Program-made: the position numbers and the translations under genes
DNA from: Psychrobacter sp. DAB_AL43B
GTDB taxonomy: Bacteria; Pseudomonadota; Gammaproteobacteria; Pseudomonadales; Moraxellaceae
Direction of reading: 5' to 3'
DNA: 64,000 nucleotides
Assembly: GCF_900168255.1 (NCBI RefSeq)
Contig: NZ_LT799838.1
Location: 434,001 to 498,000 of the forward strand
Shown here: positions 443 through 3,994 of the stretch, piece after piece
Position numbering within the stretch: position 1 is the stretch's first letter
Layout of the letters: each line of letters begins with the position of its first letter
Notes under the pieces: generated by a model
Seen by the model: only the letters and a program-made list of their open reading frames with translations
The model's database searches: none
Told to the model about the DNA's origin: nothing

Positions 443-480
443 CTGAATTCGGGATAAATCTGTTTTTATCTCGAATTCAG
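443..480 (-). terminator. Long inverted repeat between barstar gene and gltS, probable terminator
   Basis: Arms at 443-458 and 465-480 pair over 16 bases with one G-T wobble, around a 6-nt loop. The repeat follows the stop of the barstar gene on the minus strand and precedes gltS. The run after it is only moderately T-rich, so a regulatory role for gltS is also possible. Confidence 0.5.
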
Positions 481-505: not shown

Positions 506-844
506 TCAGTCGTTTGATGCCACAATAATCCATAATTGTGGTTTGCCAAAATCGTTATAGGCGTCCTCAACGATGCGTTTAAAGACATTAAAGTCCTCAG
601 TATTTATTTTTTCCACCTCATTTAAGTAAATCTTTAGGTGTTTTATATCGCTATCAGTCAAACAGTCCCAAGCACTGTCCCAGTTATGCGAAAAATAACT
701 GGGGAAACTACCTACTTTTGCTAAGCTAGTCAATAGAGTTTCTTTATTTAAGACGTCGCCAATAGGGATATTAATCGCTTGTTCAGGAATACTGCCAATA
801 AGGGCAGAGCTGTTTTGATTAATATAATAAATCGCTTGGCTCAT
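506..844 (-). CDS. Barstar-family RNase inhibitor
   Basis: A 112-residue acidic protein with the barstar core: FPSYFSHNWDSAWDCLTD at about residues 47-64, the strand-helix region that in barstar contacts the nuclease. It is expected to bind and block a barnase/RNase Sa-type ribonuclease in the cytoplasm. The partner is almost certainly the gene directly upstream, whose C-terminal domain is RNase Sa-like. The ATG starts one base after that gene's TGA stop, and its ribosome site (GGAGG) lies inside the end of the nuclease reading frame, so the two are probably translationally coupled. Family assignment is strong; the pairing is inferred from context. Confidence 0.88.
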   Translation of the reverse strand: MSQAIYYINQNSSALIGSIPEQAINIPIGDVLNKETLLTSLAKVGSFPSYFSHNWDSAWDCLTDSDIKHLKIYLNEVEKINTEDFNVFKRIVEDAYNDFGKPQLWIIVASND

Positions 845-845
845 A

Positions 846-1616
846 TCAGTTTACCTCCAGTTTTTTAAAGCTATCGTAATGATCGATAGTCAAATAATAA
901 ATGGTTGGTGGATAACCGCCCGTGACAATGCGCCGTGCGCCGCGATGAGAAACGCCTGGCGTGGGTACGGTATATTCGCGATAGTAGCCTTGCGACTGCG
1001 CCGGTAAGCTGCCTTCTCGATTATAAAACGTCGTGCCATCTTTATTAGGATAAGGAAAAGGTCCACCTTGCTGAATCAGCGCAATGGTTCGATCTATCTG
1101 CACATCACCGATGATAGCAGTTGCGTTTGAGGTGCTAGATGGTTCAGAGGAAGTCTGCGATATCGTAGTTAGTTGCGTAGCATCTGCAAAAAAACTAGAT
1201 TTTAAGTCGGCAAAAAAATAGACCGCCACGGCAATAATGGCAATGATGCTAAATAAAGTGGATAGGGTGCTTTTTTTATGTTGATTGTTACGGTCGTTTT
1301 TTACTTTATGATTTGTCTGAGTACTATTGGAGTCATTTCGACCAGTATTTTTTGCACGGCGATGAGCTGAATTTGGCTCTGGACTTTTTGAATCTGCGAT
1401 TTCTAATATGCTCAATTCATTAGAGGCCACTTCAGTAGCTCTTAATTGATTTTTTTCATTACGCTCACTATTAAAATAAACGCGTTGCCCTTCGTTGATT
1501 GGCTGTGATAACCGCACTGTACTCACATGAAAAAACACGTCTTCACTTTGATTATCGACATTGATAAAGCCATAGCCTTTATCTGAATTCCAATGCTTAA
1601 TCGTGCCACTTTGCAT
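846..1616 (-). CDS. Cold-shock domain / transmembrane / RNase Sa-like fusion protein
   Basis: A 256-residue protein with three parts. Residues 1-64 form a cold-shock nucleic-acid-binding domain (GTIKHWNSDKGYGFI, DVFFHVS). Residues 80-118 are a basic, Asn/Lys-rich linker, and residues 119-136 are one membrane helix. Residues 167-256 match guanyl-specific RNase Sa/barnase: GGPFPYPNKDGTTFYNREG, YYREYTV, RGARRIV and DHYDSF. The catalytic Glu (E214), Arg (R228/R229) and His (H246) are all present. The cysteines that make the disulfide in secreted RNase Sa are absent. The positive linker predicts N-terminus inside and RNase domain outside. The barstar gene follows immediately. I do not know this domain combination as a described family. 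Confidence 0.85.
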   Translation of the reverse strand: MQSGTIKHWNSDKGYGFINVDNQSEDVFFHVSTVRLSQPINEGQRVYFNSERNEKNQLRATEVASNELSILEIADSKSPEPNSAHRRAKNTGRNDSNSTQTNHKVKNDRNNQHKKSTLSTLFSIIAIIAVAVYFFADLKSSFFADATQLTTISQTSSEPSSTSNATAIIGDVQIDRTIALIQQGGPFPYPNKDGTTFYNREGSLPAQSQGYYREYTVPTPGVSHRGARRIVTGGYPPTIYYLTIDHYDSFKKLEVN

Positions 1617-1663
1617 GGGCGTATCATCCTGTCGATAAAGTTTTTGCAGATAAAATAATGCTT

Positions 1664-1693: not shown

Positions 1694-1723
1694 TAAAAAA
1701 ACGCCAGCAATTAAGCTGACGTT
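1694..1723 (-). terminator. Rho-independent terminator of proA
   Basis: On the minus strand AACGTCAGC, a short loop and GCTGGCGTT form a stem with one G-U pair, followed directly by a T-run. It lies about 55 bp beyond the proA stop codon. Confidence 0.8.
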
Positions 1724-1777
1724 ATGTAACAATTATACTGCAGACAGAACTACAGATTGTATTGAAGACGTAATAAG

Positions 1778-3607: not shown

Positions 3608-3994
3608 ATGGCAATTGACAATAATCAGGTTCAAAAAGCTGGCATGTATAAAAGCTGGCTGACTGTGGGATTGGTAGCAGTGGCATTAACGGTAAGCGCC
3701 TGCGGTAAAAAAGAAGAGGCTCCTATAGAAGCTGCACCAGCAGTCGATGCACAGACTGCGGTAGAAGAGGAGGCGACGGGCGTTGCCACTGCAGGCAGCT
3801 CTGATGATATTGCTGTTGCAAGTGCCGATGCCAATGCCAATGCTAATGCCAATGCCAATGCTAATGCCAATGCTAATGCCAATGCTAATGATGGTATGGT
3901 CGTCGGTAGTAATGATGATGTTGCCGTGGCGACTGCTGATGATGCAGAAATAATGGATGGTAGTGAGAGCGAAGAGCATATTTCAACTTACTAA
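3608..3994 (+). CDS. Small lipoprotein with Ala-Asn dipeptide repeat
   Basis: A 128-residue protein of unknown function. A hydrophobic signal (residues 15-31) ends in the lipobox VSAC followed by GKKEE, so it should be lipidated at Cys32. The mature part is acidic and low in complexity. It contains ten consecutive Ala-Asn pairs flanked by two similar segments, GSSDDIAVASADA and GSNDDVAVATADDA, suggesting an internal duplication. A GGAG ribosome site lies 7-8 bases before the ATG at 3608; an ATG at 3644 (MYKSW) is an alternative start. Its tail resembles those of the downstream binding lipoproteins. No enzymatic motif is visible. Confidence 0.7.
   Translation: MAIDNNQVQKAGMYKSWLTVGLVAVALTVSACGKKEEAPIEAAPAVDAQTAVEEEATGVATAGSSDDIAVASADANANANANANANANANANANDGMVVGSNDDVAVATADDAEIMDGSESEEHISTY
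3830..3889 (+). repeat. Hexanucleotide tandem repeat (GCYAAT x10) encoding Ala-Asn
   Basis: Ten consecutive 6-bp units GCC/GCT-AAT lie inside the lipoprotein gene. Unit gain or loss keeps the reading frame, so the tract can vary in length by slippage. Confidence 0.9.

Follow-up and report, generated by a model that had tools for sequence, protein, structure and literature searches.

Known barnase-type enzymes carry a cleavable signal peptide and are secreted as free enzymes. In type II toxin-antitoxin systems, the antitoxin gene usually comes first and both proteins are cytosolic. In the barnase/RNase Sa-barstar pairs of Bacillus and Streptomyces, an enzyme with the RNase Sa fold and invariant catalytic positions is encoded beside a barstar, with the RNase gene first. 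The same RNase and immunity families occur in polymorphic toxins with a barnase tip and Imm-Barstar, and toxin-before-immunity gene order has been tied to outward trafficking (PMC3482391).

The locus described here lies in a window of Psychrobacter sp. DAB_AL43B (the whole 64,000-nucleotide stretch that was analysed), which is part of one 3.31 Mb contig of a genome with a completeness rating of 100%. It resembles the Bacillus and Streptomyces pairs in fold, catalytic positions, adjacent barstar, and gene order; unlike them, its ribonuclease has an N-terminal cold-shock domain (CSD), an apparently uncleaved anchor, and no disulfide cysteines. It differs from type II toxin-antitoxin systems in that the RNase gene comes first and the RNase is predicted to be outside, and from polymorphic toxin and CDI systems in having no delivery domains and a conserved rather than exchangeable tip. 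The pair is a real, conserved variant of the barnase-barstar kind, with a CSD that is predicted to be cytosolic. Database names such as "ribonuclease domain-containing protein" and "guanyl-specific ribonuclease Sa/cold shock CspA family protein" exist, so the architecture is already visible in annotation; among the titles and opening lines of abstracts covered by a literature search, no published study of it was found.

Domains of the ribonuclease and its barstar

The 256-aa open reading frame at 846-1616(-) combines a CSD, a transmembrane (TM) helix, and an RNase Sa domain, and no domain other than CSD and Ribonuclease exceeds the Pfam cut-off. Its TGA stop (848-846) is followed by the single base 845 and then by the barstar ATG (844-842), in agreement with the first-pass annotation, which had placed a barstar gene one base after the stop. 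The features of the locus are as follows.

846..1616, minus strand: CSD-TM-RNase Sa protein, 256 aa (Pfam, sequence search against solved relatives, AlphaFold, Foldseek)
1425..1616, minus strand: cold-shock domain, residues 1-64 (Pfam CSD, 52.4 bits; dN/dS 0.064)
1266..1424, minus strand: variable basic linker, residues 65-117 (mean majority frequency 0.41; dN/dS 0.365)
1203..1265, minus strand: predicted transmembrane signal anchor, residues about 118-138 (hydropathy and charge bias in 74/74; dN/dS 0.055)
1119..1202, minus strand: second variable linker, residues 139-166 (dN/dS 0.526; pLDDT <50 in 135-164)
849..1118, minus strand: RNase Sa domain, residues 167-256 (PF00545, 72.3 bits; invariant active-site positions; RNase Sa fold)
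506..844, minus strand: barstar-family inhibitor, 112 aa (PF01337, 43.7 bits; Foldseek ranks 1-29 barstars; interface positions)
1627..1630, minus strand: AGGA, putative ribosome-binding site (read from the sequence)
1700..1723, minus strand: intrinsic-terminator-like hairpin between proA and the CSD-RNase gene (terminator and hairpin scans)
1732..1737, minus strand: TATAAT box, putative -10 element of the pair, just upstream of the hairpin (recurrence across regions)
443..480, no strand assigned: inverted repeat 3' of the barstar, possible terminator (consensus match only)

The Pfam CSD profile (PF00313) matches residues 3-64 (E 4.7e-14) and the Ribonuclease profile (PF00545) residues 173-253 (E 5.1e-20, cut-off 24 bits). 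By sequence, the closest solved relatives of the frame are RNase Sa3 (1mgr, E 1.7e-22), Sa2, and Sa. The AlphaFold model contains two confident domains (most 10-residue blocks with pLDDT of at least 90) separated by low-confidence linkers, confidence being low at residues 72-117, 119-121, and 135-164 and the TM helix poorly modelled. Among the 50 Foldseek matches listed for this model, RNase Sa, Sa2, and Sa3 occupy ranks 1-30 and cold-shock-domain chains ranks 31-50. Pfam, hydropathy, and Foldseek thus bear out the three parts that had been delineated at first.

Residues 199, 201, 214, 225, 229, and 246, which we take to form the catalytic and guanine sites (RNase Sa numbering), are invariant in 74/74 distinct Psychrobacter proteins, and the catalytic Glu, Arg, and His together with the guanine-site Asn and Glu are invariant in all 65 rows of a wider alignment, A2, two rows of which are identical. 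The catalytic residues are therefore intact within an RNase Sa fold, as had been stated, and guanyl-specific RNase activity would be expected of such a PF00545 member. The disulfide cysteines are absent, as was also stated, and the protein has no Cys at all; the observation is not informative, since 71 of the 74 Psychrobacter homologues are likewise Cys-free. Missing cysteines were rejected as a sign of cytosolic location because relatives without a CSD, e.g., L054 and L227, also have none (read from the sequences).

Over the 74 distinct Psychrobacter proteins, the mean majority frequency is 0.88 in the CSD, 0.85 in the TM segment, and 0.91 in the RNase, against 0.41 and 0.51 in the linkers. 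The dN/dS values given above (171 close pairs of 2701, common to all segments) follow the same division, and the RNase (0.044) is the slowest-evolving segment of the protein.

The barstar assignment is based on a PF01337 match to residues 25-98 of the 112-aa frame (E 2.7e-11, cut-off 23.4 bits). By sequence, the frame resembles solved barstars weakly, the best E being 0.044. In a Foldseek search with the barstar model (pLDDT 85), ranks 1-29 are all barstars, with a best E of 2.9e-3, none at or below 0.001, and TM-scores of about 0.4-0.6. The barnase-contacting residues of barstar are presumably Y29, N33, D35, W38, and D39; their equivalents are kept in Psychrobacter barstars (Y29 in 68/72, the other four in 72/72) and, less uniformly, in a wider barstar set, A3 (N33 and D35 in 49/49, D39 in 47/49, Y29 in 36/49, W38 in 32/49). 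The barstar evolves faster than the RNase (median dN/dS 0.134 vs 0.064, calculated on different pairs for each). Its ATG lies exactly one base after the RNase stop in 74 of 79 Psychrobacter loci (three of the 79 being repeats of a genome); two of the remaining five have zero gap and three have no ATG within 12 bases, two of these (L027 and L100) with a GTG at that one-base spacing instead. L078 and L084 have a split barstar frame, and that of L082 is cut by the contig end.

Predicted orientation in the membrane

The more positive flank of a TM helix stays cytosolic (the positive-inside rule). A single hydrophobic segment stands out in the 74 proteins (19-residue mean of at least 1.85, next best at most 0.87), and its N-terminal side is the more positive in 74/74 when 15 residues on each side are counted (means +3.9 vs -2.2). 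Under the rule, the protein should adopt an N-in/C-out orientation, its CSD facing the cytoplasm and its RNase lying outside it; the membrane-tethered RNase Sa-type enzyme of the first-pass annotation, with this same arrangement, is upheld by prediction. An AxA motif follows the helix in only 2/74 proteins, the cleavage motif being absent in the other 72, which makes cleavage by signal peptidase I unlikely. The position of the helix behind the CSD likewise distinguishes it from a classical cleavable signal peptide. The initial suggestion that dual topology or processing is needed is, given the rarity of AxA, unnecessary.

Occurrence in Psychrobacter and other bacteria

PF00545 was found in 83 of 105 Psychrobacter genomes and PF01337 in the same 83 (82 above the curated cut-off), the barstar match adjoining the RNase in all 83 by coordinates. 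The CSD shares the open frame with the RNase in 77 of them (76 by loci, G184 by full-length match), although in one of the 77, G226, the CSD within the frame is incomplete, beginning at about residue 26. The database search thus confirmed both the architecture and the adjacency of the barstar, and an assembly fusion of two genes, a finding by which the first-pass annotation would have been refuted, was rejected, since so many genomes carry the CSD-RNase fusion in one frame. Among the six RNase-positive genomes outside these 77, the RNase ends a 1457-aa frame in G083, the CSD is missing in G174 (P. celer), G164 has one stop, the CSD-RNase frame is broken in G236 and G232, and G235 meets a contig end. 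A second, unlinked barstar match is present in 9 of the 83 genomes.

The site is mostly constant: in 74 of 81 Psychrobacter loci, proA precedes the gene in the same orientation; proA was not found in the other 7 within the 103 to 1695 upstream bases searched. Of the 22 Psychrobacter genomes without PF00545, 20 were examined at proA, as were G083 and G029, a genome of the sister genus. Barstar remnants persist beside proA in two of the 20 without PF00545 (L121 and L122), with no RNase match there, as expected if the RNase was lost before the inhibitor. On a proA tree of 62 rows with the gene and 20 without, G083 belonging to the second group and the shorter proA pieces being excluded, gene presence has to change five times. 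The idea of a mobile element was set aside: no plasmid or phage record matched more than 80% of the query, partial matches numbering 188 plasmid and 4 phage records in collections that may omit records near the window's genome. The 1457-aa frame of G083 (L069 2146-6929(-)), a Psychrobacter genome that lacks the CSD-RNase, has the RNase domain at its end, and a barstar match below the cut-off comes next; the frame has the look of a polymorphic toxin.

According to one interpretation, the locus encodes an antibacterial toxin-immunity pair, the RNase being displayed or shed and killing neighbours without barstar. This would match the toxin-immunity gene order, the G083 frame with its tip of the same RNase family and adjacent barstar match, and the barstar remnants of L121 and L122. 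It is nevertheless unlikely, as the 256-aa protein has no delivery or repeat domain above the Pfam cut-off, its RNase is the part that evolves most slowly, unlike an exchangeable toxin tip, the cleavage motif is absent from nearly all homologues, and the site beside proA is mostly stable.

Outside Psychrobacter, PF00545 occurs in 15 of 369 genomes of a class-wide sample, where the two loci with a CSD are the window's own and L060, from another family, which also has a barstar. A contig scan, from which 80 of 451 relatives (mostly Psychrobacter) were kept, includes at least six Pseudomonas/Stutzerimonas loci with CSD-TM-RNase (L195, L205, L211, L212, L213, and L215); in all six, a barstar match lies at or across the RNase stop, that of L205 in a long overlapping frame. 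The architecture is also found in Cardiobacteriaceae, where the TAE3-ERU3 protein P0122 is identical to that of G608 (L228), a genome of the same family as that of L060. The G608 protein keeps the active-site residues (row of alignment A2). A profile search of this whole genome, rated 100% complete, gave no PF01337 match, and the next large frame downstream of the RNase lies on the other strand and resembles no barstar. Either an inhibitor is not needed in G608, which would fit an enzyme exported as it is made, or it is beyond recognition. In a tree of 29 CSD-TM-RNases with 24 plain RNases and in one of CSDs, a single clade of all CSD-RNases is not rejected (p-AU 0.374 for the RNase and 0.276 for the CSD, both short domains with few columns); one origin of all CSD-RNases is compatible with both.

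Other relatives combine the RNase with different N-termini. In all six betaproteobacterial (Rhodocyclales-type) relatives looked at (L220-L225), the N-terminus is lipobox-like; L068 and L227 begin with a short anchor. These assignments were made by eye, and none of the eight has a CSD. These Thauera/Azoarcus-type, Marinobacterium, and sister-genus pairs resemble the Psychrobacter pair in that a barstar match overlaps or follows the RNase in all eight (in L224 in a long overlapping frame), and differ from it in their anchors. The view that barnase-type enzymes are always freely secreted is made doubtful by the lipobox-like N-termini.

The reading that we consider probable, if not strongly so, is that the pair consists of an inner-membrane type II (N-in/C-out) envelope RNase acting in the periplasm and a cytosolic barstar neutralising the unexported enzyme. 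It draws on the adjacent presence of both families in the same 83 of 105 genomes, the uniform charge bias, and the rarity of AxA; on the toxin-before-immunity order, the other anchors of CSD-less relatives, and the loss of the CSD in P. celer; and on the low dN/dS of CSD, TM segment, and RNase relative to the linkers and the preserved barstar interface positions. The anchor would export the RNase Sa domain yet keep it on the cell, where it might cut RNA reaching the periplasm, for salvage or clearance, while the CSD-TM segment would replace the lipobox or short N-terminal anchor of relatives. From what is known of the family, the barstar, probably encoded on the same message, would neutralise RNase folded before export. 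The neighbours proA and gltS lend no support to scavenging.

The proposed cytoplasmic immunity by barstar is likely, but not strict, given G608. That genome bears on the envelope-RNase reading in two ways: an RNase with no detected barstar fits an enzyme working outside the cytosol, and it slightly lowers confidence in an explanation that includes a neutralising inhibitor, which may not always be needed or may be beyond recognition. The unlinked second barstar matches in Psychrobacter also count against it, as does the strong conservation of a cytosolic CSD, for which an RNase in the periplasm offers no obvious rationale. If the reading is right, the best-known enzyme-inhibitor pair would be extended to a cell-attached form in Gram-negative bacteria, a single RNase family would be seen to be attached to the envelope in several ways, and the question posed would be why a cold-shock RNA-binding domain lies across the membrane from an RNase. 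P. celer, without the CSD, and the Cardiobacteriaceae TAE3-ERU3, with no detected barstar, are the natural comparisons.

The cold-shock domain and the upstream region

The RNP-like aromatics of the CSD are retained in the Psychrobacter set (Y15 in 72/74, F17 in 73/74, F28 and H30 in 74/74). In a comparison with CspA, two surface aromatics of canonical Csps are presumably replaced, so that RNA binding by the CSD may be altered, which again weighs against the envelope-RNase reading. The dN/dS of the CSD, near that of the RNase and far below that of the linkers, indicates that the domain is under strong purifying selection and is not a passive tail; it would thus do something in the cytosol. As a guess, it may control the expression or placement of its own enzyme by binding RNA.

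In P. celer (L115 1705-2205(-)), the CSD is absent and the start, MQSGK, leads directly into the pre-helix segment, while the TM, RNase, and barstar frames are all open despite this in-frame loss. The CSD is thus dispensable for survival of the gene in that lineage. Such intactness, and the relatives that do without the domain, would suit the idea that the CSD is a by-product, left from an ancient gene fusion and serving only to provide the signal anchor with an N-terminus. That idea is very unlikely, however, in view of the low dN/dS of the CSD, the invariance of F28 and H30, and its full or partial retention in 77 of 83 genomes.

An N-terminal CSD followed by hydrophobic segments is shared with proteins that have no RNase domain in Pfam. 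In the Acinetobacter-type loci L139, L144, L146, and L147, a CSD and an Excalibur domain flank a hydrophobic segment (19-residue mean 1.96 to 2.84). A search with residues 1-128 of L147 gave 86 proteins, 65 of them with both CSD and Excalibur labels, the species-named ones being all from Acinetobacter; no paper about a CSD-Excalibur protein was found among titles and beginnings of abstracts. The window's own genome encodes a CSD-DUF1294 protein (L036 1486-2145(+)). A CSD before a membrane segment is therefore not special to the RNase. A common clade of the RNase CSDs and the Excalibur CSDs is nearly rejected (p-AU 0.065). In L142 (729-1355(-)) and L145 (936-1658(-)), the order is reversed by eye, hydrophobic stretches coming first and the CSD being C-terminal.

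The first-pass annotation had suggested an RNA-binding ribonuclease. A form of it in which the CSD presents the substrate to the nuclease is not supported, as it does not agree with two domains predicted on opposite sides of the membrane throughout the 74 proteins, with CSD-less relatives that keep the pair, with the loss of the CSD in P. celer, or with a CSD-TM segment that also precedes Excalibur. A related proposal is that of a stress RNase, cytosolic or of dual topology, whose CSD and RNase share their RNA targets and whose switch is the barstar. The union in a single chain of an RNase with a domain of the RNA-binding type, the purifying selection on the CSD, and a cytosolic inhibitor would all be in its favour. 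The uniform charge bias with a single hydrophobic segment, the CSD-less proteins of P. celer and other relatives, the Excalibur proteins, and a genome (G608) that manages with no detected barstar make it hardly probable, and the envelope RNase with its cytosolic barstar is preferred.

Among 65 distinct regions downstream of proA that contain the gene, 39 have a TATAAT box just before a terminator-type hairpin (25 lack the box and one has no hairpin); among 20 regions without the gene, one does (17 lack the box and two have no hairpin), hairpins being found by a general stem search. This single case is L121, with its barstar remnant. Shuffled windows give a rate of 0.027; the rows are related, so no formal test applies. 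A promoter scan of the window gave 5 promoter-like sites against 4.7 expected, i.e., no excess; the TATAAT at 1732..1737 is not on its list, and the scan also requires a -35 element. If TATAAT is a -10 element, transcription would start at the hairpin, which could allow attenuation.

The cold-shock proteins of E. coli are antiterminators. The CSD-TM segment might be a general gammaproteobacterial module coupling cytosolic RNA or temperature sensing to outside effectors (RNase Sa, Excalibur), and the Psychrobacter CSD could regulate its own production through antitermination at the hairpin downstream of TATAAT, a combination that appears quite unlikely. No clear hairpin with a T-run precedes the start in 8 non-Psychrobacter loci (the start of L195 set at position 2998). 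With no leader evident there, a family-wide attenuator is not supported, and self-regulation through the leader is speculation.

The neighbours of the pair are proA and gltS, the latter recognised by eye from ORF N-termini. At 3608-3994(+), the window also contains a 128-aa frame in which inspection by eye shows a long Ala-Asn repeat and, at the N-terminus, a lipobox-like sequence.
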